Part shown: positions 4,666 to 39,699 of the stretch, piece by piece
Position numbering within the stretch: position 1 is the stretch's first letter
Layout of the letters: each line of letters begins with the position of its first letter
NCBI GenBank assembly: GCA_963924555.1
Contig: OZ004587.1
Span: 5,906,075 to 5,970,074 of the forward strand
DNA: 64,000 nucleotides
Reading direction: 5' to 3'
Source of the DNA: Crambe crambe
Lineage: Eukaryota; Porifera; Demospongiae; Poecilosclerida; Crambeidae
Made by a program: the position numbers and the translations under genes
The notes under the pieces: model-generated
The model's input: only the letters and a program-made list of their open reading frames with translations
What the model was told of the DNA's origin: nothing
Database searches by the model: none

Positions 4666-7289
4666 CTACAATTGCATGCATTGGAATTATGATTAAAAAA
4701 AAATCCACTGGGTTTTGACTTACACAATCATGCATGCAACTGAGAGGGGAAAAAATAGCAGAAAAAAACTATACACCATATATATGAAGTACATGCACAG
4801 ACTAACTATACTGAGATACACAATTATAGTACTGTATTGCTTACCTAGAGGACAAAGTTTACAACCTTCATATTCACCAGTTTGAAATGAAAAACCAACT
4901 GGCCCTATGCCATGAGTACAACAGTTGCTTAGTGAGACCACCTCAAAAGAACCTCCACAACTTGAAGTGCCATAGCATATGACTTCATGAGGCCTCGCGA
5001 TCACTATAAAATTATAATCATTGTCAATAAGTGATTGGTCAGCTGATCTAGTCAAGTAGCTGCCAAAGTAACCACATGCATGGAAATATGATCTAGTGTA
5101 TACTTTGCACATTTGTGGAATGCAATGTACAAAAGATGAGTGTGCACATACATATTGACACAGACTGAAAGCCTGAAAGTACATGGATGATATTTGAGAC
5201 TACAGAAATGATATCGATATTCCTGAAGTTTGGCCATCAATCAATTACTTACAAACACAGGAGACACCATTTCCACTGTAACCATTTACATGTACAGGTA
5301 TGGCTACCTTGAGTGTTGGTGCATGTAGCATTTGAGTCACAGTTGTTAGTAGTGGCACACTCATCACAAGTGATGCCATTTCCACTGTATCCATGGTTAC
5401 ATGTACAGGTATAGCTTCCATCAGTGTTGATACATGTAGAATCTGAGTCACAGTTGTTAGTATACTGACACATTCATTTATATATGTAGAGAAGAAATTG
5501 TAGCTATAGTCTTATTCATTCCCTGTAATGTTGCAAGATGTAGCTATTTACCATCATAAGTGATGCCATTTCCACTGTATCCATGGTTACATATACAAGT
5601 ATAGCTTCCAAGATTATTGGTATATGCAGCATTTGTGTCACAGTTGTTAGTACTGACACACTCATCTTATATCTATGCTATTTAGGGGCAGGGCCATTGT
5701 GCATGTACATGCTTATGCCATGCAATTTCTATATACCCAGCAGAAAGTTCAGCCAAAGGTTGAAGAGCAGCCAGCTTTAACTAACTGCCGATTGTATAGC
5801 CAGAGTTAGCTATGGCCTTCAGCAAGCTGAATTGTGTTTCTCCCTCCTCATTCGTTTTTATTTTGTTAGGGAGGATATCACAGTTGTTAGTACTGGCACA
5901 CTCATCTACATCATCTGTACACCGAGAAACAGCATCCAAGAATAATGTTGCCTTTTATGTTTATATTATTTCAAAAATGAATTAAGGAAGATGTTTTTGG
6001 TCTCATTCTTATAATAATACACAAACTATTATGTACGTACTCACACTGGATAAACTTTAATCCTCCAGGATAACCATGAGAGTTGAATCTGCCAAATCCA
6101 TAAATTGATACACCAATCCTTGCATTCGAGTTGACGTGCAAGAGTGTGTGGTCTCCAGCAGATAAAGCCACTCTAGTAATGTATCCACAAATGCGACTAC
6201 TTGAGCAATAAATTTCGGTCCATGTTGAATTTATTAGACTTGCAGAGTCAAGAAGAATCTTGTTTGGCTGGTGATATTTTGTGGAAGCATATATTGTGAT
6301 ATAGTTTGTAGAGAATCTTGATGGGACATTGAAGACATAGTTATTACTGTATTCTTCCACTGATGGTATCATCATCATGAAAGGGTCACCAGTAATGTCA
6401 TCAGCTAAATATCCAAGTGCAAACTGAGTGACCAGTACTGGAGCTGAAGACTCAATATTGCAGAAGCTATTAGGGTTGATCCTAAACTCAGTCCAATTTC
6501 CAGCAACTAAAAGTGAATATACCTTCACTTGAGGGAATGTTGTACAATTCACACTGATTGTGGTAGAATTCCAAGCAGCAAGTATCCGGATGAGCTCACC
6601 TGACATCCTTCCCTTAAGAGAGGCAACAAAGAAAGAAGTGCCCCATGTAGATGTTGGTGGTATCTGTTCTGTCAGGTGGTCACAAGCTCCTATATTTGTA
6701 GGTACATCAGTACATTCCTGGTTGCTGAAAAAGGATATCGGCTTTGTTGATATTATTCTCACACCAGTGGAGTCGGAACTTGAGATCAAATATGTTTCGA
6801 GACTATTTAACATAAATGTAGTTGAGGGAGTAGTGATTGTGGTGTTATCTTCACATCCAACAATGAGTATGTCACTTGTAAACTGTGGTCGCCTATCAGG
6901 ATATGTTATCCCATAATACTCATATTCATCCACTGCTAGGTTACTGCAAGGCAAGGCTAAGAATGAATCACTTGTACTACCCTTGATGTAGAGATGAGAG
7001 AAACCATATAGAGTTAGTTTGCTATCTCCCTCAGCTTTGACATGTATCCCTTTATTTCGCTCAGTGGTGCTGTTTGATCGGACTTGGAATGTATGTGGTA
7101 AAGTCACAACTGTTGTAGAATAATTTGTAGCCACTCCATTAAAGGTAAATCCTCTTGCTTCCACATTAAAATTAACAGGATTAGATTCTGGTGTGTTTAC
7201 AAGGAGTTGGATGGTTGGTTCTGTACTGATATCGTGATTGGTAGAAAATCCCAGGAAAAATTCATTAGCCTTGCTCTCAAAGATAATCT
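53..7289 (-). CDS. Gene A, main exon block: IgGFc-binding / EGF / Cys module / Calx-beta repeat protein (3' end off window)
   Basis: Exons in gene order: 7289-6045 (IgGFc-binding), 5665-5552 and ~5470-5253 (EGF), 5003-4845 (Cys module), then Calx-beta exons 4665-4534, 4472-4254, 4090-3887, 3827-3600, 3520-3110, 3054-2905, 2827-2603, 2470-2330, 2202-1996, 1933-1778, 1721-1473, 1331-1191, 1126-920, 721-581, 531-319 and 205-53. Boundaries are GT/AG and match paralogues B and D; apart from the EGF block all lengths are multiples of three (phase 1-1). The last half Calx-beta and the FN3 exons expected from B lie left of base 1. A secreted extracellular protein is expected from the family architecture. 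The EGF block carries a frameshift and a lost acceptor (see separate entry), so this copy may be decaying. Its 5' exons may be those at 23518-22863, 15.5 kb upstream across transposon-rich DNA; that link is an inference. Confidence 0.8.
4845..5003 (-). CDS. Gene A exon: Cys-rich ~53-residue module
   Basis: Encodes [14 protein letters not shown], then [13 protein letters not shown] and EYEGCKLCPLG. The exon is phase 1-1 and 159 bp, as in B (29994-30152) and 144 bp in D (54834-54977). I do not recognise the domain. The spacing CC...GPVGFSF...EGC..CP is conserved in all three copies and the module always sits between the EGFs and the first Calx-beta. It is probably disulphide-bonded and extracellular. 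Confidence 0.7.
5253..5905 (-). pseudogene. Gene A EGF exon cluster, degraded
   Basis: There are three EGF-like exon traces. The first (5905 leftward) begins DECASTNNCD and then runs into ~200 bp of unrelated sequence (about 5672-5878), so it is truncated. The second (5665-5552) keeps a DECVSTNNCDTNA start, but two conserved Cys positions read Tyr. The third (about 5470-5253) holds two EGFs. Its second EGF lacks two bases where CNHGYSGNG is expected and reads KWLQWKW before a stop, and its acceptor, AG in the sister exon, reads AA. Intact relatives are at 31852-31980 and 30287-30406 in B. These defects are visible directly; whether they abolish the gene depends on splicing around them. Confidence 0.7.
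6045..7289 (-). CDS. Gene A exon: IgGFc-binding-type domain (415 residues)
   Basis: Single 1245-bp exon. The protein resembles the N-terminal domain of IgGFc-binding protein (FCGBP) family members: an N-terminal ANEFFLGFS block, [19 protein letters not shown], the [19 protein letters not shown] block, and [13 protein letters not shown]. The acceptor is TTAATGCAG before 7289 and the donor GTGAGT after 6045. Paralogous exons are at 30543-31784 (B) and 60967-62202 (D) with very similar sequence. The domain is extracellular and found in mucus- and matrix-type proteins; a ligand cannot be read from sequence. Confidence 0.85.
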
Positions 7290-8789
7290 CTGCATTAAAT
7301 ATCATTATTCAGCTAATGGCTTTTCTAACTAGCTTTTTTTTAAACTACTAGCTAGCTAGTAGGTTCTGTTAGGAAATGGTCTTAAAAGAGATTGGTAGAA
7401 AATCCTAGGAAATAATTCATTAGCCCTATACTCTTAACAAGTTTGTCTTTAAAAAAAGACTTGATGCCTTGGCATGTAGTACGTAGACTATAATGCATTA
7501 TTATTTTGATTTTCACTGATTTTTTTTTTCACTGTGTTTACCTATGGATCTTATTTTACACGCATGTAATTATCACATTAATGACTTTCTATGTTGTAGC
7601 AAACTAATATTCAGGCTGGCTCGTGAGACTAATAATTATAGAGTGGCTAGCTATATCATATAGCTTGTTTGCTTAGTTTAGTCGGCTCTTTCTGCTTTTC
7701 CTCAGGACTTTTAACCTACTTGTGACTTTGTAGCTTCTGTTCCTAGGCTCTCTTGCTGCTTTTTTAGAATCTTGAGCTTTATACCCTCTACTCTTGCTGT
7801 TTCATGTTGGTTTTCTTGATCCAGTGCTGATCGTTTACTTGCCTACTGCCTCTGCTCTCGCTGCTTGGCTCTCTTTCTGCTTTCTTATGATCATTAACTT
7901 GCCTACTACTCTAGTGACTTTGTACCTTCTGTTCTTACTATTTAACTTTCTCTTGCTGCCTTTTCAGACGTGCATACGTTTGCACGTGCTATTAATAGGA
8001 CGTACATACCATGCACACATAGTTGCCTCCAGCACTGTGGCACTTCGGTGCCGAGGCAAAAATGACCTCTGCATTAAAAATCAAACAAGTTCACTAGTTT
8101 GCTCTAATAATCATGGGTGCTGTCAACTGTGTAGTCAATCAGATTCTGGAACAGAGGTAAAAGGTTTGACCATTCTAATGCACAGAAGACCTGTAATGGA
8201 TCCTGATTATGCTGTCATAAACAGACATTTCAGATTATGTCAATAAACGCCCGAGTTCCTGGATACAGCCCAAGAACAAAGGTGGCATAGCCTAAGACAA
8301 GGGCCGTTTATTGCCACAACAGGTTTATTCCTTAGGCTATACACTCACATGATTGGACAGTCCTTTCTATTAATTAAGATGCATGTGAGTGAAAATGACC
8401 AAGTGCTAGTAGATCTAGTGCAAATAAAACATTAATAGTTTTAGTTCTTGGACAGCAAGAGTGAGAATCTCCTCAATGACTATATGCAGTTCAGAGTTCT
8501 AATGCACTTGTAATCTTGTAATGATTCTGGTGTGATAAAAGAAAAGGAGACTTGATTATGCTGTCATAAACAAGCATAATTAATAAAGTAGTTCAGACAA
8601 AGGCTATTTAGCACAGCTCTACGACTTTTATTTTCTTAGGCTACACTGATGTGATTGGATATAGTCCTTCCTATTGGCTCGCATTTAGTAAGTGAAAAAA
8701 TGACAACACACAGCTAACGAGCTTGTCCCATTTCCTTACTATTTGCAAATATGCTCACCAGCTGCCCAAGTGCTAGTTTATAGGTATAT
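7290..8789. other. No gene seen; imperfect tandem duplication and hairpins
   Basis: No exon of the array family was found here. A block around 8175-8410 (CTGATTATGCTGTCATAAAC, then TTAGGCTATAC, GTGATTGG-type and AAGTGCTAG motifs) recurs in diverged form at about 8495-8775. An inverted pair near 8240-8318 (AATAAACGCCC / GGGCCGTTTATT) and a small hairpin at about 8030-8056 (GTGGCACTTCGGTGCC) are visible. The long open frame at 7794-8246 has no family resemblance and biased composition. Confidence 0.5.
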
Positions 8790-13980: not shown

Positions 13981-13989
<9 letters not shown>

Positions 13990-13991
<2 letters not shown>

Positions 13992-14497
13992 GAGAAGAAG
14001 AAGAATCCAGCGATTTACCTGCTTGCCGTATTTCTGAAACGGTAAGCTCCCTGGTCCTGAAACTTGGTCTGCACATTGTAGTAGGCTCTAGTAGGCTGGA
14101 TAATCATTCACAGTAGCTTTTGTTAGGTCTAAGTGGGGGAACTAGAATTTCACTATAGTATTAGTCTATAGGCGGCGCGCGCGGCCGTCCGAGTCATCCC
14201 TACATAGAGAGTGCTACCGCACTCTCTGATAGAGAAGAAGAAGAATATAGCGATTTACCTGCTTGCCGTATTTCTGAAACGGTAAGCTCCCTGGTCCTGA
14301 AACTTGGTCTGCACATTTTAGTAGGCTCTAGTAGGCTGGATAATCATTCACAGTAGCTTTTGTTAGGTCTAAGTGGGGGAACTGGAATTTCACTTTTGTA
14401 TTAGTCTATAGGCGGCGCGCGCGGCCGTCCGAGTCATCCCTACATAGAGAGTGCTACCGCACTCTCTGATAGAGAAGAAGAAGAATATAGCGATTTA
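13990..14497. repeat. ~240-bp tandem units T (two full, third interrupted)
   Basis: Units start TAGAGAAGAAGAAGAA and end AGAGAGTGCTACCGCACTCTCTGAT broken as hairpin halves. They contain CCTGCTTGCCGTATTTCTG, TTGGTCTGCACAT and the GC-rich GGCGGCGCGCGC. Unit 1 is about 13990-14230 and unit 2 about 14231-14470. Unit 3 begins at 14471 and is split by the transposon at 14498, resuming at 20018. No coding potential. Confidence 0.85.
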
Positions 14498-14538
14498 CGG
14501 TAGATTGCAAAAAAAACGTTGCACCATCTCGCGACAGC
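14498..14538 (+). repeat. Left terminal inverted repeat of the BEN/mariner element
   Basis: About 40 bp, pairing with 19974-20015 with a few mismatches and one indel. The outermost bases are CGGTA, adjacent to the TA target. Confidence 0.8.
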
Positions 14539-14622
14539 TCCATTGGTTCGCGAGCCACTCAGTCCATCACGCCCTCAACGAAGGAAGCACTTGTCAACTG
14601 AGGCAAACCATGTAGCGAGGCT

Positions 14623-14713
14623 GATCGCGACTGTGGGCAAGGCTCAAAACCACAGCTTCGCGAGACCGTATCGCGACTATGGGCAAGGCTCAAAACCACA
14701 GATTCGCGAGACC
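14623..14713 (+). repeat. Left subterminal direct repeats with TCGCGA cores
   Basis: Two copies of about 46 bp: ATCGCGACTGTGGGCAAGG then CTCAAAACCACAG and TTCGCGAGACC, repeated with single changes. Subterminal repeats of this sort often bind transposase or accessory proteins; here that is inference. Confidence 0.7.
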
Positions 14714-14782
14714 AGTTCTCAAACAGTGAATCAATTCCAGCCAGCAAGTGAGCCAGCGCTGCTAAAGTCATGGACATAAGGC

Positions 14783-15598
14783 AGCCTGCAATTCAGATTG
14801 TCCAGCAACCTGCGAGCCAGCAATTGCAAGCCAGCCAGGAAGTCAGCCAGGAAGCCAGCCAGGAAGTCAGCCAGGAAGCCAGCCAGTAAGCCAGCCTGCA
14901 AGCCAGCAGGGAAGCCAGCCAGGAAGCCAGCCAGTAAGCCAGCAGGAAAACCAGCCAGGAAGCCAGCCAGGAAGCCAGCCAGGAAGCCAGCCAGCAAGCC
15001 AGCAGGAAAACCAGCCAGCAAGTCAGCCAACAAACCAGCAGAGTGGGCAGTCAGAAAGCCAACCAACAAGCCTTCCAGCAAATAATGGTGGAAAGACTGC
15101 AGCAACTAAACCATCTGTTACTCGCTCTAAGCGAATTGTAGCATCTAAATCAGCTCAATACTACATCAGATATGAAGGAAATGGCTCACAGAAATGGGAT
15201 GGACGTGAAATCGTGATGGATGCAGAATTTATGGAGTCCCTGTACAAGAAAGAAGAGCTTGTACCAGGAAAGACTGTAGAGCTGCCTTGGGAAACTGGTG
15301 GCAAAACTGAGGTATGGAAGGGAGTGATCATTGAATCATCCACAGAAAAAACTCCTTGTAAGTTCACTCTGCATGGGAGGCCTTCATAATTAATGTATAC
15401 ATGGCTTATCTTTTCAGCTAAAAAACCACAAAAGAGAAGGCCACCCAAGAAGAAAGCCATAGCCAGTAAACAAAGTGAGTATATACGTATTTAAACTATA
15501 GTCGTATTTTATTATTAATTTTATTTCCATTCTTGCAGAGAAGCAAGGCAGCATCATCACAGTGGGTGGGGATTATATACCTTCAACTACAGGTATAT

Positions 15599-15672
<74 letters not shown>

Positions 15673-17816
15673 AAGCATAATTGACCTAATTAATGTATAT
15701 ATATTCTCTAACTGGTAGTCCAGTTGTGGGAATTAGGTGGGTTTTGTTGACATTATGCCAAGATGACCTATATATATATTTGCTCTCTAATTTTAGCTTC
15801 AGGGAGTAGTGCTCATCGGAAGAAAAGGAAAGGTTTGTTGACCATGCATGCATAATGAAGCCATTGCATAGCATGAGTGTGCTAAGTTGTGGGTGCATGC
15901 ATGAGAGCTAAAGCTATTGTCTCACCACTGTTGTTTTAGTCATTGCATGCCAGACCTTTGATGTCTATATTGTGTATGTAATTGTGAGAGCTAATTCTGT
16001 GCAGGGTTTTCTTGGCCATTGGGAGGTCTATATAGTATTACAATGTTTCGTATGCAGGAGCAACTGTGGAAAAGCCAACAGTTTCAAGCATTCCTGCAGG
16101 TGACAACACAGTTGGCATTCCTGGAGGTGACAACACATTCAGTAAGCATGCAAGGTTCTATACATATCTAGGATATCGATTTTGGAGGGGGATCTTACTT
16201 ATTTTGGGGGAAGTTAAATGGCATTTATGATGATCCATGGTGACTAAGTTTATAAATGATGCACATATGTGATGTCTCATTTGGAGATTGTTATGTATCT
16301 TTTTTCTCTCTCCATAGTTTCTCGGCTTCTTGAACAGTAAGGTCAACTAATGACTCTATTGACGAGTATGGTTTTACAGCAGCAATCACAAGCTACCGCT
16401 CTTCTCTCTCAATATCAATCTCCCGTTAACTTAGTCACCCAGAATTCGCCTCAACAATTACTCCAATTTCTTCACCAATCACAATCACAGTTGCCACTTC
16501 AGCCTCAGACTCAGTCATCTCAATTGCCCAACTTTTCGTCTTCTCCAGGTTCGTTTCAGCAACTTTTACAGCAACTGCCCCTCAATCTTTGTTCCCAAGC
16601 CCCAACTCATTCTCAGCAATTAAGTACAAATCATTCTCAGCTTAACTCTCAGCCAGCAAATGTCAGGTATTCACAGGCAGCAACTACACCTTCAACTCAG
16701 CTCCTCCAGTCTGTTCTTTCATCCCAACCATCTCTATCACACAATGAGCTAACTCCAGTTTATTCACAGCAATCTCAGGGTGACAGCAGTCTCTTCCCAA
16801 ACATCTCAACTCAATACCGAGTCCACTCACAGTCATCTCGACCAAACATTCAGCCGTTCAGTCCAGCCTATTCCCAACCTTCTCATAATTCCCAGTCTGA
16901 TAACTTCCAGCCATCTCAGCCGTCAACTTACCACTCCAATACCCAGTTATCATCAGTTCAGCTGTCATCGACTCACATGCAGCCATCAGCTCAGCAATCA
17001 CCTTTTGAGCTACTGTCTCACCGGTCTTCGCATCTAGCAACTCCTCATCCTTCCGATGGTGTTACCCAGCAATTTCAGTCACCTCAACCCTTCTCTCCAA
17101 CATTATCTGACCCATCTTCCTCTTTTTCACATCATTCAGAAATATCTTCTGAAGGCACTTCCCGTGTGGGAGGTGGAACCTCATCCAATGGTTCACAAAA
17201 ACAAGGTGACTGCATCATCCTGGATGAATTTTCGTGGGATGATACTGCAGGAGAGGACTCTGATTACATGACATGGGATACAGACAATACTGATAGTACA
17301 TTAGCTCCAAGCAGTTCTGGGATCACACCAGCTGATCATACATTAGCTCAACCCATAGAAAGAGCAGAGGTCACATTTCAGCCATCAGGTAATCATATGT
17401 GGGCTCCAGCCTCGACTGCTTCAGAGTCACCATTGGCTTCAAGAGAAGAAGTAGTTCAGCCACCAGCTATACCACCACCGTTTGATACACCTCCAAAATT
17501 GTGTTCTGTGCAGCAGGTATTGAAGAATTACCCTGGTAAGGACGTTGCCAGCTTAAGATCACTTACAGTTGCTTTAGCAAGGGATGCAATATTTGGACGT
17601 GAAGCACTCTCAAAATGCAGCTTAAGTGGAAGAAAAGGTACTGGTGTTTTGAGCCAAGAGAAAGTCCGGTATATCAAGCAACTTGTCCATTCTAGAGTTC
17701 CAAAGAAGTCGTTGGTTGACTTTGAGAACATTTGGAGCATGTGCAGACTCTCACTTTCTAAGTCATGTCAAACTCTTCGAAACAGTGCTCGCAAGAAACT
17801 TCTTCCTGAGAATTGA
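14783..17816 (+). CDS. BEN-domain protein gene carried by the transposon (multi-exon, 5' end unresolved)
   Basis: Supported exons: an open frame of Gln/Pro/Gly/Ser repeats (14783-15075) running on to 15357 through NNGGKTAATKPSVTRSKR and YYIRYEGNGSQKWDGREIVM; then 15418-15474 (KKPQKRRPPKKKAIASKQ), 15539-15592, 15797-15832 and 16058-16141, each phase-compatible with GT/AG ends; and a final exon to the stop at 17816. The last open frame has an ATG at 16350. Joining via 16318-16336 would need a 30-bp intron, so that link is uncertain. The final part is Gln/Ser-rich (residues 1-370 of 488) with a C-terminal BEN domain (about 382-485): VASLRSLTVALARDAIFG, SGRKGTGVLSQEKVRYIKQL, ENIWSMCRLSLSKSC. BEN domains bind DNA and mediate chromatin silencing. 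No start ATG is seen for the repeat frame; an upstream exon is likely. Confidence 0.7.
14815..15045 (+). repeat. 12-bp coding minisatellite (CAGCCAGGAAGC)
   Basis: About twenty imperfect copies of CAGCCAGGAAGC and variants. Since the period is a multiple of three, all forward frames stay fairly open; the frame continuous with the BEN gene reads QPGS repeats. The antisense reading (LAGF repeats) is taken as a shadow. Confidence 0.8.
15602..15671 (+). repeat. (CT)n microsatellite in BEN-gene intron
   Basis: About 35 CT units in the intron between the exons ending at 15592 and starting at 15797. Confidence 0.95.
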
Positions 17817-18389
17817 GTACTGCATTATTCACTGCTATGTTGATTATTATTAACTGCTGATATTAGCTCTATTATTCATTGCTGATTTCTATTGTTTCTG
17901 GTAATGGGGGTATATTTCTGATCGTTAAGGCAATTCCAAAATAATTATGGATTTTTCTCCCTTCTCATAGGGATGCAGGGAGGACAAAACATAAACTACC
18001 TTAGTATACTATGCGTAATGGCATCTCTGAGTTTGTATGGGTCATGTGTTCTAGTATACAAAGATTAACAGCAGTATACTGGGATTCTAGTAAAGCAGTA
18101 TATCATGATATACAAAATAGGGCAGGGAAATCTGTTAAACCAGTAATCTATTTTGAACTGCCTAAGCAAAGTTTGAACTCTGGGTGACCATCAGAATCTG
18201 AACTAATCATGTAGTAAGAAATAGCTACTGAATTTTTGGTGTGGTTTAATTTGCATTTGGAGTGCGTGTATAATAATTAGTTATAGTCTCAGCACAGCAG
18301 CAAAAAGATCTTTATTATTATTAAGCAACAAAATGTATACTGTTCAGTGTGTTGAATACAAGTGTATAGATAGCTGTATTAGCTAATCT
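17817..18389. other. Transposon interior between the convergent BEN and transposase genes, no gene seen
   Basis: AT-rich, no open frame of note. The two genes converge here, so this should contain both polyadenylation regions. Confidence 0.5.
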
Positions 18390-19409
18390 TCAATAGCCTG
18401 TGGCATCACCATTAACTTCTATAACCCGAGGCAAGACTTTCTGTAGATGATTGATGTAGCGACAGCACTTATTTTCGTCAATTTTTGCCCAGAATGCATT
18501 GATACCATTCACTAATTCAAGCTTGGTGGTAGGCTTAACTTCCCTTCGGATATACTCCTTCATTTCATGCCAGAGATTTTCTATTGGGTTAAGATCTGGA
18601 GATTCAGCTGGTGTACGCCACCAATTGATTCCTTTCTGTGCATAGAAAGCCTGGGCTGCACGAGAAGTGTGTTTCGGATCATTATCTTGCATAAACCTGT
18701 GCGTATTTGGGGGTGGAAAAGTTTGTTGAATAAATGGGAGCAATGTGCGATCCAAAATTTCACAGAACAATGGTGCTGCCATTATGCCTTCAAAAATGCA
18801 CACTGGAGTGGCACCTTTCTTGCTTATTCCACCCCATACATGCACTTTAATGGGGTGCTTAGGACGAGGTTTTGGCTTGGGTCTTTCCCCTTCCTTTCGA
18901 TAGCAAAAGCGGCGGTGATTCTCAAGTTGTACAGTGGTTTCATCACTCCAAATTACATCCTCAAACGTGTCATGGAGATTAGCTTGTGCCCACTGAAGCC
19001 GTTTCACTTTGTTTTCATTGCGAATAAGCTGACAATAAGCTGAGCCGCGATAAATCCATCCAAGATTACATCGATTTCTGACAATAGTAGCCAAAGAAAC
19101 ATAAACACTGCAATTAGCTAAAAATCCTTGGAGTTGAGTGGCTGTTGTTTCATCATCATTGCGCATTATGTCTTCAATCAGCTTCTCAATACGAGGTGAA
19201 AGCTTTGGTGGTAGTCCCGATCCTGGTTTTCTTGCAATAGTTCCAGAACTGCGGTATCTCTTCAAGAATTGCCTTACTCCATGTTTTGACACAAGAATTT
19301 CATCTTCTAGGACAAGGCACTCCACAATTGCTGTGACTTTGAAGCCTTGTAGGGATAAGCTTAAGATCCTCTGCTTTGTGTAGTCACTGAAAACCATGCC
19401 TATTTGCAC
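18390..19409 (-). CDS. Tc1-type DD34E transposase, intact
   Basis: 339 residues, a usual Tc1 length. The N-terminal half (about 1-110) has the paired HTH domains: TKQRILSLSLQGFKVTAIV and KPGSGLPPKLSPR with SLATIVRN. The catalytic residues are D156 (VIWSDETTVQ), D242 (MQDNDPKHTS) and E277 (SPDLNPIENLW), giving 34 residues between the second D and the E. No stop or frameshift. A splice acceptor-like CAAATAG lies just before GCATGG near the start, so an upstream exon is possible. It lies inside the 14498-20015 element, antisense to the BEN gene, and is the obvious mobilising enzyme. Confidence 0.92.
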   Translation of the reverse strand: MQIGMVFSDYTKQRILSLSLQGFKVTAIVECLVLEDEILVSKHGVRQFLKRYRSSGTIARKPGSGLPPKLSPRIEKLIEDIMRNDDETTATQLQGFLANCSVYVSLATIVRNRCNLGWIYRGSAYCQLIRNENKVKRLQWAQANLHDTFEDVIWSDETTVQLENHRRFCYRKEGERPKPKPRPKHPIKVHVWGGISKKGATPVCIFEGIMAAPLFCEILDRTLLPFIQQTFPPPNTHRFMQDNDPKHTSRAAQAFYAQKGINWWRTPAESPDLNPIENLWHEMKEYIRREVKPTTKLELVNGINAFWAKIDENKCCRYINHLQKVLPRVIEVNGDATGY

Positions 19410-19799
19410 AGTATGGTAGGACTAGTAACAAAGGGGGGAAATGGATTAGTAAAATGCAAAAAAAATAAAACAAAAACAAACAAAAAAACAAAAAAACACA
19501 AAAAAATAAAACAAAAAACGAGTAAAACAGTGCAGATCAACATCATGCAGTAGCTAGCTACATTCGGTTGTTCAGTGAGAAACTATAGTCAGTGAATAAT
19601 AGCTAGTTCGCTATAAGAAACATGCATCTATAGCTAACTAACATACCTTTTCCTGAAGAACTGAAACAAGAAATGTACGTAGCTAAAATTAGGCAGTGAC
19701 AGCGTTAGTATCTTCTCACTGAATTCGAAATTCAAGTAACGAGAGCTCTGCACCAGCGCTTCATGTCTTTAAAGCCAGCACTTTCGTGAAGTGCTCGCG

Positions 19800-19908
19800 A
19801 AGTATCACGACATTTAAGAAGTGCTATCATAACACCTCGCGACCTTCATGAACTGCTATCATAACACCTCGTGACCTTCATGAACTGCTAACATAATACC
19901 TCACGACC
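19800..19908 (+). repeat. Right subterminal repeats with CTCGCGACC cores
   Basis: Three copies of a ~38-bp unit: CTATCATAACACCTCGCGAC then CTTCATGAACTG, decaying to CTCGTGACC and CTCACGACC. They share the CGCGA theme with the left subterminal repeats. Confidence 0.7.
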
Positions 19909-19973
19909 CTGTGGTAGGCTCCTCCAATTCATATATTTCCTTTGTGGTAAGCCTCGTAACAAGTGTCTCGTGA

Positions 19974-20015
19974 ACTGTCACGAGCATGGTGCAAAGTTTT
20001 TTTTGCAAAGTACCG
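19974..20015 (-). repeat. Right terminal inverted repeat of the BEN/mariner element
   Basis: Reverse complement starts CGGTACTTTGC and carries the same run of eight A and TTGCACCAT core as the left end. Confidence 0.8.
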
Positions 20016-20017
20016 TA

Positions 20018-20470
20018 CCTGCTTGCCGTATTTCTGAAACGGTAAGCTCCCTGGTCCTGAAACTTGGTCTGCACATTGTAGTAGGCTCTAGTAGGCTGGA
20101 TAATCATTCACAGTAGCTTTTGTTAGGTCTAAGTGGGAGAACTAGAATTTCACTTTAGTATTAGTCTATAGGCGGCGCGCGTGGCCGTCTGAGTCATCCC
20201 TACATAGAGAGTGCTACCGCACTCTCTGATAATAGAGAAGAAGAAGAATATAGCGATTTACCTGCTTGCCGTATTTCTGAAACGGTAAGCTCCCTGGTCC
20301 TGAAACTTGGTCTGCACATTGTAGTAGGCTCTAGTAGGCTGGATAATCATTCACAGTAGCTTTTGTTAGGTCTAAGTGGGAGAACTAGAATTTCACTTTA
20401 GTATTAGTCTATAGGCGGCGCGCGCGGCCGTCCGAGTCATCCCTATAGAGTGCTACTGCACTCTCTGATA
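20018..20470. repeat. ~240-bp tandem units T, remainder of unit 3 and unit 4
   Basis: CCTGCTTGCCGTATTTCTG resumes directly after the TA at 20016-20017 and runs to CACTCTCTGAT at about 20230. A further unit covers 20234-20470. Joining 14471-14497 to 20018-20230 restores one unit of the expected length, which dates the repeat before the transposon. Confidence 0.85.
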
Positions 20471-24654: not shown

Positions 24655-25907
24655 CTGCATAAGAAGGTAAGCTGAAAAGAATTGCTAATTTATCATATGA
24701 GCTAGCTAGTTATACGAGTTGAGCATTCATCAAACAGCTCATAGCTATATACGTATTTCTCACACTCTCAAATAGCTAATCAGCAAACTACGTATTTTCA
24801 CTATCACTAGCTATAGGGAATGCATGCAAGTGTGGATACTTTGTGTGGCCATCACTATACTTTTATAATCATACTCCCTCCCTCCTCCCCCACACCCTAT
24901 AACTCACTGCAATGAATGTTATCATAGATGATCACTCTAGCATAACTAGGAAGAATTTTGATCCGACTTTTTTTCCTGAGGAGAGAGGGGAATGTATGTC
25001 CCATTTCTTGAAATGGTGATACTGGTTATGTTGACAACAATTGTCTCCACTTGTTCGGGGATGGTGTCAGAAATTATAGCAATGGTGAACGTCAGGGATC
25101 TTGTGCCATTAGAGAAGGTTAGGTTAGTCGAAGGAAGCATCATGTAGTCACTTTCAGCTTCATAAAAAAAAGTGAACAGAACAACATTGATACTGGGGCA
25201 CCCAAGGGCATGTGCTGAAGTGGAGTACGTATTGCTGTGATGTTAAAATGAATTTTACCTCTTGCAGAAGCTAGTGTGCTAGTATCATCTGTAGCAAGAG
25301 ATACAGAAGCAACAAGTATTCCTAGATTCCCACTCAGAGACACATTAAGGGTGGCATTTCCTGCATCTTCACTGACTTCATAAGACGATTGGTTGAAGCT
25401 GAATGTTAGGACTGTAATTAAATTTTTTTTTTAAATTCTTCAATGAAAAGATGGACAGTGTGTTAGTCTTTGATTTACCATCGTCATCAAGTATAGTGAT
25501 GTTAAGAGATGTAGAAACTAGTGAAACAAGTGACGAAGATGGCTGACCCAATAACCTCAGTGTTGCCTCTAACACTTCAGTGAGTTCAAATATGTCATCC
25601 TTTATTAATGGGACGCAAGCAGCAGATCTGTTGTGTGTAGCATTGAAGATAAACACCAGAGAACCAGTGCTATTTCCATAGTCCCTGCCATCTATTAAAT
25701 TAGTATGGTTGCAGTGTTGAAGAGTTATGTTAGTATACATGAATAGGAACTTACAAATTACTGATTTACTGGAGAAGGCAAGCTGTACAGCTATATTTCT
25801 CCCTAGAATTCCTGATACCACTCCAACCTCCACACAAGCCGTTCCATCATCTTCACTGACATTGTATGGTTGATTGATAAAGCCAATCACAACCTCTGCA
25901 TGTAAAT

Positions 25908-28900: not shown

Positions 28901-31900
28901 CTGCCTCTTCTGTGCATGATATCAGAGTATTAGGTATATCAATTGTAATTGGAAAAAAAATGTGAATCTTACGGGCTCTATTTGGAGATATTTCATCATC
29001 AGGAAAATCACCAATGATGTCTCTTGACTGAGCAGCAGCAACTGTCAATGGAGTTAGCTTCAATGCTACAGGACTGGCAAGGAATGTGGACTGGCTTTTT
29101 TTAAACACTCTCACTGGCATTACTGAATTTTGTTTTTCTTCAGCCCAGTAGCTGCATCCAGGTATTGTGAATATGACAACTGCAAGGTCAAAGAATCAGA
29201 AGAATTAGACTCAGTCTCTCTCTCTGTATGTAAATCTAAAAGACATAATTACCATTGGTATCTATTATCGTTCCCTTCACTTTGCTGACGATTACTGTGC
29301 TATTTCCAAACGTAGATAATGGAGTGTGCAGATTCAATGAGATGATAAATGTCTCATCTTCTTCTTGGGCAACTGCATCCACTAGTAGTGCAAATGAGAT
29401 GAGTTGTCGATCAGTACTTCCAGGTGATATGTCTATGATATTTCCACCAAATAAATGCACATCTTCTCTGCCTGATAATGGAAAAAAGTTATAATTATTA
29501 TTCCGTGTGCCTATTAAATTATTTGAAAAGAATATGTGCTAGCTATGACTTCAAGATGCAGGAAAACATTACCTGCAGTTACAGGAGTCAGTTTGATTGA
29601 ACCTGTGACCTCTTGAGAAGCTAATCCTGATAGGAAGCCAATTTCAACAGCATAATTCTGCAATCGTTCTTCCCCAATAAATTCAGTTTGATTGAACCCA
29701 AACACTGTAACAACAAAACAGCAAAAGAAAGAAAACACTTTCACCAGCAGTAGCTATAGAACTAGCCATTGATTCACTCAATCATCATAGCAACCAATAA
29801 AATGAAAGTCAAATTTGGCTACAGACAAACTAATGAAGTAAGCTTTTCAATTTTAATGCTATTATACCACTGTGAAAATGAAGTACATTGATGTGTATAG
29901 CTAGCTATAGGGACAATTGCACACTTAGTGTGTCTGCATAGAGACAATTTTCATGCATAATTTTAACACTCCTGTTTTTACTGTATTTCTCACCAACAGG
30001 ACAAGCTGTACATCCTTCATGTTCACCAGTTCGAAAAGAAAAACCAACTGGTCCTATACCATGAGTACAACAGATATTTTGTGTGATGACATCAAAGGAA
30101 CCTCCACAACTTGAAGTTCCATAACATATGACTTCATGAGGCCTCACAATTACTACATGTATGTTAGGAGTGCAGAATCAATTTGTATTTTCCACATATC
30201 TTCATGATGCATATTAAACAGTGGATCATAAGACAAACAAATCATGCAGCTGAATCCACATGTGCATGCTAGAGTTTGTCACTTACAATCACAAGAGACA
30301 CCATTTCCACTATATCCATGGTTACATACACAGGTAAAGTTTTCAGGAGTGTTGAAACATGTAGCATTAGAGTCACAGTTGTTAGTGGTAGCATTGGCAC
30401 ATTTATCTGTACATATCATTATTATGATGATTAATGGTCCTGGGACATAGATAGACTTAAGCCAATTATAACTATACGTATATTATAATGACATTACAAT
30501 CAATAAAAGTTATACTAAGCTTTTTTATACATATGCACTTACTATCACTTGGTGTGATCAGTTTTAGTCCTCCAGGATAACCATAAGAATCTCCAAAATA
30601 GAATCCATATACAGACACACCAATCTTTGCATCAGAGTCAACATGCAAGAGCTTGTGGTTTCCAGCAGATAGAGTCACTCTAGTAATGTATCCACAAATG
30701 CGACCACTTGAGCAGTAAATTTCAGTCCATGTTGAAGTTAATAGACTTGCAGAGTCAAGAAGAATCTTGTTTGGCTGGTAATACCTTGTGGATACATATA
30801 TTGTTATGTAGTTTGTACCGAAAAACGGTGTGATACTGAAGACATAGTTATTACTGTACTGTTCCACTGATGGTATCATCATCATGAAAAGGTCACCAAT
30901 AATGCCATCTGCTTGAAATCCAAGTGCAAACTGAGTGACCAGTATTGAAGCAGAAGACTCGATGGTGCAGAAGCTATTAGGGTTAATCCTAAATTCCGTC
31001 CAATTACCAGCAACCAAAAGTGAGTAGACCTTCACTTGAGGAAATGTTGTACAATTCACACTGAAAGTAGTAGAATTCTGAGCAGCAACAATCCTGATGA
31101 TCTCTCCTGACATTCTCCCCTCAAGGGAGGCAACAAAGAAAGAAGTGCCCCATATAAATGTTGGTGGTATCTGTTCCGTCAGGTGGTCAAGAACTAGAAT
31201 ATTTATAGGTATTTCAGTACATTTGTGATTGCTAAAAAAGGATATAGGCTTCGTAGAGGTTATTTTCACACCAGTGGAGTCATAACTTGAAATTAAGAAT
31301 GTTTCAAGCTGATTCAACGTGATAGTAGTTGAGGGTGTAGTGATCGTAGTGTTATCTTCACACCCTACAAGGAGCATGTCACTTGTGTAATACGGTTCAG
31401 GATATGTTATCCCATAGTATTCGTATTTATCTACTGCCAGATGACTGCAAGGCAAGGCTAAAAATGCATCACTTGAACCAGGAAATGCATGAGAGAAGCC
31501 ATATACAGTGAGTTTCTTATCTCCCTCAGCTTTGACATGTATCCCTTTATTTCGTTCAGTGGTGCTGTTTGAACGAACTTGGAATGTATGAGGTAAATCC
31601 ACAACGGATGTTGAGTGATTTGTAGCTACTCCACTGAAGTTAAATCCTCTGGTCTCCACTTTGAAATTGACAGGATCAGATTCTGGTGTGCTTACAAAAA
31701 TTTGGAGGGTTACTCTCCACCCTCCAACATTTGAAGAAAATCCCACAAAAAATTCATTAGCTGCATTCTCAATGATCATCACATCTACATAAAAAAGTAG
31801 TTGTCAAGTAACATTATAGCATAATACATGCAGGTAGTGGTTTAGCTGTACCTATGCAAGTGACTCCATCCCCAGTGTATCCATGGTTACATGTACAGGT

Positions 31901-35685: not shown

Positions 35686-38600
35686 ATGGCTCACACAAGA
35701 GTACCGATCTACGGTCAGCTGACGGCATTCGACCCAGAAGCTGAGAACATCTCCACTTATCTGGAGAGAGTGTCTTTGTACTTCGCGGCAAATGACATCG
35801 GAGATGGCAAGAAGGTTTCTGTGTTGCTGACGGAGATAGGTACCAAGAACTACGGTATCATCAGAAGCCTTGTAGCTCCAGCTTTACCGCAGGACAAGAC
35901 TTTCGCGGATCTTGTGACTGTGCTGACAGATCATTTCCAGCCCAAACCCCTGATAATTGCCGAACGTTTTCGTTTCTACCAAAGGAACCAAGGGCCTACT
36001 GAATCGGTGCTAGACTATGTGGCAGAATTACGACGACTCGCCATTACCTGTGATTTTGGCACTTTTCTTGACCAGGCGCTCCGAGATAAATTTGTCTGTG
36101 GGCTCAAGTCGGAACAAACCCAGAAGAGCTTGTTAGCTGAAGAAGGACTGACCCTGGCTAAGGCTGTAGAGAAAGCTCAAGCTAAGGAGACTGCTGCTAG
36201 AGACGCCCGAAACTTGAAAGGCCAAGGTCCGACCACAATGTCTGGAGTTTTGCAGCTGTCAACCACAAATACTATGAAAGGCTCCGCCCAAGTCAAAGGG
36301 AAGCCTTGTTTTAGATGTGGCAGGAAGGGCCATGAAGGCAAGGACTGTAAATTCAAATCAGCTACTTGCCATAAATGTGGCAAGGTTGGCCACATTGCCC
36401 CTACTTGCCGGAGCAAGAAATCAGCTGGTCGAGGTCACAATGATGTCCGCTATCTCGAATCTACTCAGAGTGAACCGGAGGATCTGGGAACTTTCTCGAT
36501 TGGAGGAAATTCTTCTCACCCGATCCGAATTGAACTTCGAATTTCAGGGAAGCCGTTGACCATGGAGTTAGACACTGGTGCTGCCGTGTCCCTCCTCCCT
36601 GAGGGAGTGTTTAGGAAGATGTTTCCTAAGGCCAAGTTACGTAAGTCCAACATGGTACTACGTACGTATACTGGAGAAGCCATGGCTGTGATTGGGACGT
36701 ATCCTGTGTTGGTGCAGTACGAACAGCAGTTGCCTCAGGAACTAGACCTGACTATAGTTCGAGGTGAGGGACCTGCTCTCCTCGGTCGAAATTGGCTCAA
36801 GCATATCACACTTAATTGGGCATCTATTGGATCACTATCTCGTGAGCAGGCCTTGCAGGATGTTCTGGACAAGAACAAAGACGTATTTGCAGATGATCTT
36901 GGAACTATTCAACCCTTCACTGCAAAGCTATCTGTGTCCTCAGGAGCTCGACCCAAGTTCTGTAGGGCTAGGCCCGTGCCCTATGCTCTGAGAAGTGCTG
37001 TGGAAGAAGAATTGGATCGTCTCGAAGCACAAGGAGTCATCGAGAAGATTGACCACAGTGAGTGGGCGGCACCAATCGTGGCAGTCCCTAAGAAGGACGG
37101 CCAAGTCAGAATTTGTGGGGATTACAAAGTTACCGTCAATCCCGTGTTAGAGGTTGATCAGTATCCCCTACCCAAGCCGGAAGACTTGTTTGCCACCCTC
37201 GCTGGGGGACAACAGTTCACCACACTGGACTTGTCCCATGCATATAACCAACTCGTTCTTGAGGAGCAATCCCGACATTTGGTCACCATCAATACCCATC
37301 GAGGACTCTATCGGTATCGCAGACTGCCATTTGGAATTGCCTCAGCGCCCGCTGTGTTCCAAAAGACGATGGACACTCTGTTGCAGGGCCTAGGTAAGGT
37401 GACTTGTTATCTTGATGATATCCTGATTACAGGTGCTACCCCTGCGGAACACCTCGCCCACCTTGAGGAGGTGCTGTGTCGGTTGAGGGAGCATGGTGTG
37501 CGGCTACGAAGAGACAAGTGCCGATTTTTAGAAGCCAGTGTTGAATATCTCGGGCATCGTGTGGATCGAGAAGGGTTGCATGCCACCAATGACAAACTCC
37601 GTGCCATAGCAGAAGCACCCCCACCCCGGAATGTGCAGGAGTTGCGGTCATTTTTGGGGCTTTTAAACTATTATGGCCGGTTTATACCCAATTTGGCATC
37701 ATTGCTCCACCCCTTACACAAGCTGTTGTGCAAGGGTTGTCCATGGAAGTGGTCCTCGGGTTGCCAGAAAGCCTTTAACCAAGCCAAGGAAGCCTTGACA
37801 TCCTCCAAGGTTTTGATACACTATAATCCTAATCTTCCTCTTAAACTTGCAGGTGATGCCTCAGCTTACGGAGTGGGAGCAGTGATCTCACATGTAATGG
37901 AGGATGGCTCAGAACGCCCGATCGCTTTTGCTTCCCGAACCTTGTCAAGCAGTGAGCGTAATTATGCTCAGGTGGAGAAAGAAGCCTTGTCGTTGGTCTT
38001 TGGTGTTAAAAAGTTCCACGCCTATTTGTATGGGAGACAGTTTACTCTCACAACTGACCACAAACCACTTACAACCATCTTGGGACCAAAGCAGGGTATC
38101 CCTACCCTTGCTGCAGCTCGCCTACAACGTTGGGCACTGATACTATCTGCCTATACATACCATATAGAGTTCCGTCCCACTGGTCAGCATGCCAACGCTG
38201 ATGGGTTGTCACGCCTGCCGCTGCAGGAAGTCACTCGAGAAGGTGCTTCGTCAGAACCATCTGTCTTCAATATATCTCAGCTAGAGAGTTTACCTGTGAC
38301 AGTGAAACAACTTCAAGCAGCTACTCGTACAGACAATATCCTGAGCAAAGTCCTTCGTTTTACGAGGGGAGGATGGCCGAAGAAATTTGATGCGTCACTA
38401 CGCCCCTACTGGTTACACAGACAAGAATTCACGGTGGAACAAGATTGTGTGCTCTGGGGAGTACGCACAGTTATTCCAGGGAAACTTCAGCAGAAGCTGT
38501 TAGAAGAACTCCATAGAGACCACCCTGGCATCAGCCGGATGAAGGCCGTTGCACGTGGATACCTGTGGTGGCCGGGTCTGGATAAGTCAATCCAAGACTT

Positions 38601-39699
38601 AGTGAAGAGCTGTCAGTCGTGTCAGGCCGTGAAACATGCACCTGCCGTGGCCCCGATGTATCCATGGTCCTGGCCTGCGAAACCATGGCAGCGGGTGCAT
38701 CTTGACTTTGCCGGTCCCTTCCAAGGGGTCATGCTGCTCGTTGCTGTTGACGCCCACTCAAAGTGGCCGGAGGTTGAGATCATGCACAGTACAACGGCTG
38801 CCAAAACCATTGATGTTCTCAGGAAGATGTTCACTACTTTCGGATTGCCTGAGCAACTGGTCACTGACAATGGGCCACAGTTTCTGTCTGAGGAATTTGC
38901 ATTGTTTTCGAAACTGAATGGCATCAGACACATCAGGAGTGCCCCCTACCACCCAGCCACCAATGGCTTAGCGGAACGGTTTGTGCAGTCGGTGAAGTTG
39001 GCTCTCAAGGCCAGTGTTAATAGTGGAAAATCACTCTCCGAAAGATTGCTCAGCTACTTACTCACCTATCGCAGTTCGCCTCATGCAACAACTGGGGTTT
39101 CCCCCTGTTCGCTGTTTCTTCATCGTCCCCTTCGCACTCGACTTGATCTGCTTCGTCCGAATCTGGAAGCCTGTGTTGTGGAAAAGCAGGCACAGCAGAA
39201 AGCTGTTCACGACCGGAGAGCTCAATGTCGAGAGTTCCTTGTAGGACAGAGTGTCATGGTTCGGAATTTTCGTCCTGGACAAGACTGGGTGCCAGCAATT
39301 GTTGTTGAGAGACTGGGACCTGTTTCATATTTGGTGGAAACAGCTGATCATCAGATGTGGCGGAGACATCTGGACCACTTGAAAGAGTTTCGTGGGTTGC
39401 CTAACTCTGTCCAGAGTGGCTCTGACAGAGAGGTTGCTGTTGACGATGAAGACCCCTTACCCACTTCTTCAGAACCTACTACAGGGGATTTCCCTGATGA
39501 ACCACCTGCAGAGGATCCACCTCCAGAAGTTGATGTACCTGTCAGTGATCCTCCACCGACCCCTTCAGGATCTCATGCTGAGCCTCCTGACCCTGGCACA
39601 CGACCCTCATCCTCCACTGCTATAGTGTTGGAGAACCCTGAACCACCACCTCCACGTTACCCTACCCGGATTAGGCACCCTCCTGAACGGTACCAGTGA
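35686..39699 (+). CDS. Gag-Pol polyprotein of the Ty3/gypsy element
   Basis: 1337 residues in a single frame. Gag is at about 1-250 with two CCHC knuckles (CFRCGRKGHEGKDC, CHKCGKVGHIAPTC, about 208-246). Aspartic protease follows (LDTGA, about 295), then reverse transcriptase (YLDDIL, about 575), RNase H (DASAYG, about 722), and integrase with an H2C2 finger and DDE core (LDFAGP about 1005, TDNGPQF about 1060). The Pro-rich C-terminal tail shows no chromodomain. Gag and Pol are fused without a frameshift. All catalytic motifs are present, so it may be active. Confidence 0.95.
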   Translation: MAHTRVPIYGQLTAFDPEAENISTYLERVSLYFAANDIGDGKKVSVLLTEIGTKNYGIIRSLVAPALPQDKTFADLVTVLTDHFQPKPLIIAERFRFYQRNQGPTESVLDYVAELRRLAITCDFGTFLDQALRDKFVCGLKSEQTQKSLLAEEGLTLAKAVEKAQAKETAARDARNLKGQGPTTMSGVLQLSTTNTMKGSAQVKGKPCFRCGRKGHEGKDCKFKSATCHKCGKVGHIAPTCRSKKSAGRGHNDVRYLESTQSEPEDLGTFSIGGNSSHPIRIELRISGKPLTMELDTGAAVSLLPEGVFRKMFPKAKLRKSNMVLRTYTGEAMAVIGTYPVLVQYEQQLPQELDLTIVRGEGPALLGRNWLKHITLNWASIGSLSREQALQDVLDKNKDVFADDLGTIQPFTAKLSVSSGARPKFCRARPVPYALRSAVEEELDRLEAQGVIEKIDHSEWAAPIVAVPKKDGQVRICGDYKVTVNPVLEVDQYPLPKPEDLFATLAGGQQFTTLDLSHAYNQLVLEEQSRHLVTINTHRGLYRYRRLPFGIASAPAVFQKTMDTLLQGLGKVTCYLDDILITGATPAEHLAHLEEVLCRLREHGVRLRRDKCRFLEASVEYLGHRVDREGLHATNDKLRAIAEAPPPRNVQELRSFLGLLNYYGRFIPNLASLLHPLHKLLCKGCPWKWSSGCQKAFNQAKEALTSSKVLIHYNPNLPLKLAGDASAYGVGAVISHVMEDGSERPIAFASRTLSSSERNYAQVEKEALSLVFGVKKFHAYLYGRQFTLTTDHKPLTTILGPKQGIPTLAAARLQRWALILSAYTYHIEFRPTGQHANADGLSRLPLQEVTREGASSEPSVFNISQLESLPVTVKQLQAATRTDNILSKVLRFTRGGWPKKFDASLRPYWLHRQEFTVEQDCVLWGVRTVIPGKLQQKLLEELHRDHPGISRMKAVARGYLWWPGLDKSIQDLVKSCQSCQAVKHAPAVAPMYPWSWPAKPWQRVHLDFAGPFQGVMLLVAVDAHSKWPEVEIMHSTTAAKTIDVLRKMFTTFGLPEQLVTDNGPQFLSEEFALFSKLNGIRHIRSAPYHPATNGLAERFVQSVKLALKASVNSGKSLSERLLSYLLTYRSSPHATTGVSPCSLFLHRPLRTRLDLLRPNLEACVVEKQAQQKAVHDRRAQCREFLVGQSVMVRNFRPGQDWVPAIVVERLGPVSYLVETADHQMWRRHLDHLKEFRGLPNSVQSGSDREVAVDDEDPLPTSSEPTTGDFPDEPPAEDPPPEVDVPVSDPPPTPSGSHAEPPDPGTRPSSSTAIVLENPEPPPPRYPTRIRHPPERYQ

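Follow-up and report, generated by a model that had tools for sequence, protein, structure and literature searches.

Tc1-like transposons of the DD34E class, among them Sleeping Beauty, have a DD34E transposase, a TA target and terminal inverted repeats, and the transposase is typically their sole gene, which is usual and not defining. The element described here lies in a window of 64,000 nucleotides from the sponge Crambe crambe (contig OZ004587.1, positions 5,906,075 to 5,970,074). It has all three features, but it belongs to a family of elements of about 4.2-5.6 kb that carry a second, multi-exon, convergent gene encoding a BEN-domain protein (the BEN gene).

VANDAL elements of plants are Mutator-like. 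In the portion of PMC5735166 that treats it, the Arabidopsis protein VANC is transposon-encoded and causes methylation loss, and its targets are described as often being tandem repeats that vary between related elements. The sponge family likewise has a transposon-encoded protein, the BEN gene product, together with motif repeats in noncoding parts of the element to which binding is putative; VANDAL elements are from plants, and the likeness is drawn from the description rather than from a sequence comparison with VANC. The ciliate Tec/TBE elements are also Tc1/mariner transposons with more than the transposase, having three open reading frames (ORFs) with one in the complement, but their inverted repeats are about 700 bp, the second ORF of Tec is a recombinase, and the sections of PMC7325037 on these elements mention no BEN gene. 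BANP, BEND3, NACC1 and Insensitive have a BEN domain in common with the element's protein, where it is recognised by a weak Pfam match and by homology to host-like BEN genes, and the CGCG motif of BANP and BEND3 also occurs in the element ends. The element version differs in being encoded inside a transposon, in having an extra N-terminal domain and in scoring under the Pfam cut-off. Among the open-licence papers listed for "BEN domain" together with transposons, no title or abstract opening describes a BEN gene in a Tc1/mariner element.

The terminal inverted repeats of the window copy are 32 nt long and 91% complementary (14496-14527 against inverted 19986-20017); the first-pass annotation had recognised the inverted ends and put them at about 40 bp. 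Joining the flanks without the element gives GCGATT[TA]CCTGC, the same sequence as in the adjoining 240-bp units, which indicates a TA duplication and an empty site and bears out the TA target and the empty site proposed earlier from the neighbouring tandem units. The target is a unit of 240-250 bp that forms arrays of about two copies at 13989-14498, 20016-20470 and 56738-57233 of the window, and a 49-bp piece of this unit has matches on many contigs. The two genes are convergent, with the BEN gene on the plus strand and the transposase on the minus strand.

The transposase is an open frame of 335 amino acids (aa) that matches Pfam DDE_3 with an E value of 5.6e-23. D152, D238 and E273 are conserved in the transposase alignment and are presumably the catalytic residues. 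The 34 residues between D238 and E273 place the protein in the DD34E class, as did the earlier call of an intact DD34E transposase. Its single PDB match at E <=0.01 is Sleeping Beauty (6.8e-30), which indicates a Tc1-type and not a mariner-proper enzyme. By its sequence the element is confirmed as a Tc1-type DD34E transposon, and its original label of mariner-type is right for the Tc1/mariner superfamily and wrong for mariner proper. None of the viral contigs probed with the transposase and with the BEN alignment was confirmed, and the phage records probed with the transposase gave no match.

Linkage of the two genes was followed through one genome of 143 Mb, in which 120 of 158 transposase candidates were scored and counts are lower bounds. 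The 95 transposase matches fall into 73 loci, 30 with at least 45% identity, one with 36% and 42 with at most 28%. A BEN match lies within 10 kb at 21 of the 30. All 21 pairs are convergent and 16 are within 700 bp; the weak case among them joins a transposase fragment of 33 aa to a BEN match 4.3 kb away on contig C3 (contigs and loci carry C and L numbers). Where at least 500 bp of transposase is present, 19 of 21 loci have a BEN match within 10 kb. Nine fragments are shorter: two have a BEN match, one has a BEN remnant (L046), one (C3:1661793) lies about 3.1 kb from an N-terminal domain match, and five have no BEN match within 10 kb in the genome-wide match list, their surroundings not having been fetched. 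As a control, the 42 loci at <=28% identity, which belong to other Tc1/mariner families, were compared: BEN lies within 10 kb of 2 of them (on C19 and C8), both at a BEN match of the two-gene family.

The exact end pattern has 33 matches in the genome against 7 for its control. Nine inverted end pairs, chosen by eye and spaced 4.5-7.8 kb apart, occur among the 33, and all nine span matches to both genes, some of them decayed, so the single-gene layout usual for Tc1-like elements is not found among these nine. Close-spaced end pairs like those of miniature elements are absent from the 33 matches. The first-pass annotation had proposed this end search, asking whether full-length copies always hold both genes, and had named copies lacking BEN and the capture of a host gene as outcomes against its claim of a BEN gene belonging to the element. 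The end-paired elements answer in its favour; two longer transposase relatives in which BEN was not detected are weighed below. One-off capture of a host BEN gene is ruled out by the same place and orientation of the gene in five subfamilies. With both outcomes examined, the claim is strongly supported, and the sequences strongly support the BEN gene as a standing component of a Tc1-type lineage.

The five BEN-carrying subfamilies are A, to which the window copy belongs, B (L037-L041, L043), B' (L042), D (L048) and C (L044, L045). Transposase identity to A is 69-73% for B, 70% for B', 70% for D and 62% for C. The ends TACGGT...ACCGTA are common to the subfamilies, with both found in L037, L038, L048, L044 and L045 and one in L039 and L042. 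Long alignments of the BEN genes give 25-33% identity, and the BEN domain is 55-63% identical, or 28% for C. L037 and L038 are the same over 4659 bp and have different flanks, showing that subfamily B moved recently.

Both genes are matched at seven subfamily A loci (the window copy, L009, L010, L011, L012, L014 and L013/L047). An eighth locus, L036 on C11, has a decayed BEN gene and shows no match to the transposase within the 9.9 kb fetched. Clean TA...TA ends at different sites bound five of the six excised A copies (window, L009, L010, L011, L014). The left end of L012 (C12:6957672-6965444) is displaced about 2.2 kb upstream, probably by an insertion, and about 2.2 kb of other sequence apparently lies within its left terminal repeat. 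The left end of L013 is slightly altered. Transposase and BEN are both open in the predicted models of L010 and L012. In L009 the first and last BEN exons are open and the transposase is broken, in L011 exon 1 of BEN contains a stop and the transposase has a gap, and L014 and L047 are decayed.

The amino-acid sequence of the BEN domain is shown by codon comparisons to be constrained between A, B, B' and D. Among these subfamilies synonymous change is saturated, with a synonymous proportion (pS) of 0.76-0.89, and the replacement proportion (pN) is 0.23-0.34; comparisons with C have pN of about 0.5 and are little informative. L037 and L043 differ by 7 synonymous and 2 replacement changes, L039 and L043 by 8 and 3. 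Transposase A-B pairs have pN of 0.19-0.20, and among three A copies the transposase has 2 synonymous and 2 replacement variable codons of 335, too few to weigh. The N-terminal domain has pS of 0.73-0.84 and pN of 0.31-0.43 across subfamilies, and between the two B' copies of it there are 3.5 synonymous and 9.5 replacement changes. An unrooted BEN tree has three groups, A/B/B'/D, C and host-like, in which A/B/B'/D is separated from C and host-like with a support of 100 and the host-like group has a support of 54. The BEN gene has belonged to the element from no later than the split of A, B, B' and D. Subfamily C may represent an independent BEN uptake; the transposase relatives on C26 and C58 group with it (support 100).

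The BEN domain of the window copy matches Pfam BEN (PF10523) at E 0.0025 and 18.4 bits for the ORF and at E 2.5e-4 and 21.6 bits for the domain, where the cut-off is 23.2, and all eight aligned members match it at E <=0.1. A profile of the element BEN domains finds a host-like two-domain frame, L052 on C5, with 133 bits, and the L052 protein scores 24.5 bits on Pfam BEN, over the cut-off. By way of L052 the element domain is homologous to accepted BEN domains, and the BEN calls as a whole combine weak Pfam scores with homology within one genome. A PDB search with the BEN profile gave two chance-like matches only (E 0.22 and 0.74).

The open predicted BEN models are of 751 aa (L010) and 773 aa (L012), and in both the predicted order is an SQP-repeat tract, the N-terminal domain, basic exons, a Q/S-rich tract, an acidic stretch and the BEN domain. 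Scoring of splice sites against a consensus gives several near-equal chains, the middle exons are uncertain, and a scan at a strict cut-off gave no chain. A single-exon gene was rejected because the last-exon frame of subfamily B has no early Met and requires upstream exons. The N-terminal domain has a predicted b-b-a-b-b fold (strands b, helix a) with a mean predicted local distance difference test score (pLDDT) of 81. In the window copy its sole Pfam hint is to the histone-reader family Spin/Ssty (E 0.0017, under the cut-off), which the subfamily B domain does not give, and it has no PDB match at E <=1. A genome scan with the domain gave 16 matches, of which nine are in A and B copies and six of the other seven are near a family BEN, transposase or end match. 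Nothing of these kinds was found near the match at C5:5096207, and the domain was sought in subfamily C and not found there.

The noncoding ends of the elements hold clusters of the palindrome TCGCGA. Eight of its nine copies in the window are in the element ends, where the left cluster overlaps a 46-bp tandem repeat of 2 copies (14624-14713) and the right includes a 32-bp tandem repeat of 2.8 copies (19818-19908). Ends were taken as 350 bp on each side (700 bp per element), with 500 dinucleotide shuffles as the null. TCGCGA is the commonest 6-mer in subfamily A ends (8 for the window copy, 9 each for L010 and L011), and in subfamily B, with 11, it is second to the overlapping CGCGAG with 12. 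The middles of A and B elements have none, and none of the 500 shuffles reaches the end count. The single surviving end of B' has three. Across the genome TCGCGA forms 114 close pairs, where the reversed control forms 38. Among the 50 of these 114 pairs that were listed, 28 are in family elements, whose bounds were set by hand, including 7 of 7 clusters of at least two pairs. A separate dispersed sequence outside the BEN elements has two TCGCGA around a fixed 25-nt core (C1:1619358, C5:3331116, C6:2107519, C8:5562036 and others). The parts of PMC10206803 and PMC11472053 on human BANP describe its BEN domain as binding CGCG in TCTCGCGAGA, with the whole protein methylation-sensitive at TCTCGCGAGA and the lone BEN domain nearly insensitive.

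It is possible, with a rough probability of 0.45, that the BEN protein binds the TCGCGA clusters at the ends of its own element and sets the chromatin or expression state there, most simply as an anti-silencing factor. One gene is the cut-and-paste transposase, and the second, convergent from the opposite end, encodes a large nuclear-looking BEN protein that would bind the clusters just inside both ends. The clusters are located upstream of the two genes and next to the transposase end sites, and the bound protein would set the state of the element and most simply keep it active against host silencing. The first-pass suggestion that the BEN gene could protect, target or silence the element is thus a hypothesis for which the TCGCGA clusters offer a test. 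That the element is kept open to transcription is preferred because selection on single copies favours it. A stronger version, which we hold only tentatively, is an animal counterpart of VANC: a Tc1 lineage that took up a chromatin gene long ago, the gene co-evolving with the TCGCGA arrays and encoding a sequence-addressed factor that would counter silencing by protecting CpG sites and whose N-terminal domain might read histones.

Several observations count against binding and anti-silencing by the BEN protein. Subfamily A copies score 18.1-22.2 bits on PF10523, under its cut-off, and AlphaFold gives a weak model of the BEN domain, with five helices and a mean pLDDT of 64.8. The BEN gene of the window copy looks broken by an early frameshift and a premature stop: its ATG and its N-terminal domain are in different frames, and the beginning of the last exon is interrupted by a stop. 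An intact gene was rejected as the simplest reading, since a stop-free chain needs a start inside exon 1 and weaker splice sites. The multi-exon BEN gene reported earlier opposite the transposase is thus present, by its weak Pfam match and exon models, and apparently not intact in this copy. Transposase relatives of at least 500 bp on two small contigs, C26 (1-11000) and C58 (1-8000), have no BEN found in these stretches. There are also 19 BEN matches at 11 places without a transposase match within 10 kb; three of the places belong to the family by other marks (the decayed A copy on C11, and C3:3535331 and C3:2796964 beside N-terminal domain matches), and the remainder include a host-like cluster on C5. 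Subfamily D ends have two TCGCGA, a count that 9 of 500 shuffles reach, and subfamily C, with one (80 of 500), is without a cluster. Close BEN pairs are mixed, with 1 synonymous and 3 replacement changes for L037/L039 and 0 and 3 for L044/L045, and among the 478 codons of the BEN last exon in four A copies, 9 vary synonymously and 5 by replacement, too few to weigh. Most element sites match BANP's TCTCGCGAGA in the TCGCGA core only, and the lone BANP BEN domain is described, in the same parts of PMC10206803 and PMC11472053, as preferring AAATCTCG.

The location of the clusters, within about 225 bp of both ends and adjoining the inverted repeats, also suits a transposition cofactor, which would bind the subterminal repeats and help to assemble or regulate the complex of transposase and ends rather than act on chromatin. 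TnpA of the plant element En/Spm is a model for such a protein. Sleeping Beauty and like relatives need no second protein, and we consider a cofactor unlikely. An equally unlikely alternative is that a BANP-like protein of the host reads TCGCGA as a motif of host promoters or CpG islands and that the element BEN acts otherwise, for example by competing. BANP reads TCTCGCGAGA in the portions of PMC10206803 and PMC11472053 cited above, host-like open BEN frames exist (L051, L052), and 22 of the 50 listed TCGCGA pairs are outside the family, which leaves room for recognition by a host factor. The multi-pair clusters among those 50, all of which are in the BEN family, argue against this.

Some BEN proteins are repressors, and the BEN protein could instead silence its element or limit its copy number, which is low at no fewer than 30 transposase loci of at least 45% identity in 143 Mb. 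Such self-restraint would be hard to maintain by selection on single copies, and the identity of L037 and L038 over 4.66 kb in different flanks points to recent mobility, making silencing improbable. The host-like BEN frames and the broken gene of the window copy would fit a host BEN gene that hitchhikes with no function for the element, but this is very improbable given the same place and orientation across diverged subfamilies and the constrained amino-acid sequence.

Table 1. Features of the window copy and its target, in window coordinates.
Feature	Position	Strand	Basis or remark
Whole element including TA on each side, 5522 bp	14496..20017	.	inverted ends, TA duplication, empty site in adjacent units
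Left terminal inverted repeat with TA	14496..14527	+	91% complementary to right end
Left subterminal cluster, six TCGCGA	14529..14709	.	at 14529, 14548, 14625, 14658, 14671, 14704
BEN gene exon 1: ATG, SQP-repeat tract, N-terminal domain	14770..15357	+	out of frame in window copy; open in L009, L010, L012
N-terminal domain of BEN protein	15144..15350	+	predicted fold and pLDDT as in text; weak Pfam Spin/Ssty
Predicted exon 2, basic (KKPQKRRPPKKKA)	15418..15474	+	splice model
Predicted exon 3, resembles subfamily B exon by eye	15539..15592	+	splice model
Predicted short basic exon, boundaries uncertain	15803..15832	+	splice model
Predicted short exon, boundaries uncertain	16058..16099	+	L010, L012 models
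Last exon: Q/S-rich tract, acidic stretch, C-terminal BEN domain	16318..17816	+	early premature stop in window copy
BEN domain region	17460..17813	+	Pfam, alignment
DD34E transposase, 335 aa, intact	18390..19397	-	open frame, DDE_3, conserved D/D/E, Sleeping Beauty match
Right subterminal cluster, TCGCGA and six TCACGA/TCGTGA	19784..19983	.	TCGCGA at 19795, 19837
Right terminal inverted repeat with TA	19986..20017	-	pairs with left end
240-bp tandem repeat units left of insertion	13989..14498	.	empty-site reference
Tandem repeat units right of insertion	20016..20470	.	

Open frames of host-like type, each encoding one or two BEN domains, lie at C5:5608500-5611000 and C5:5617000-5619000 (L051, L052) and at C5:5637287-5638012, and none has a match to the transposase within 10 kb. 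These are possible sources or descendants of the element gene. L049 (C26:6681-7517), a relative of the transposase with 55% identity, is split into two or more pieces with about 0.8 kb between them and is near a frame that is kinase-like by eye. No BEN and no clear ends were found at L049, which is possibly decayed or domesticated. Elsewhere in the window, 35686-39699 is a single open gag-pol frame of 1337 aa from a gypsy-type retrotransposon (gag, zinc knuckle, protease, reverse transcriptase, RNase H and integrase by Pfam). Three frames at 5971-7305, 30472-31782 and 60953-62242 are alike by eye, the first being of IgGFc-binding type by Pfam, and a Calx-beta frame at 25378-25890 lies between them.

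To our knowledge, how animal DNA transposons escape silencing is largely an open question; in plants, VANC is a clear case of such escape. The question becomes testable in a Tc1 lineage that has two genes, a conserved BEN protein and, at its ends, a candidate binding motif, and the lineage shows how a host regulatory gene family can join the core gene set of a transposon.

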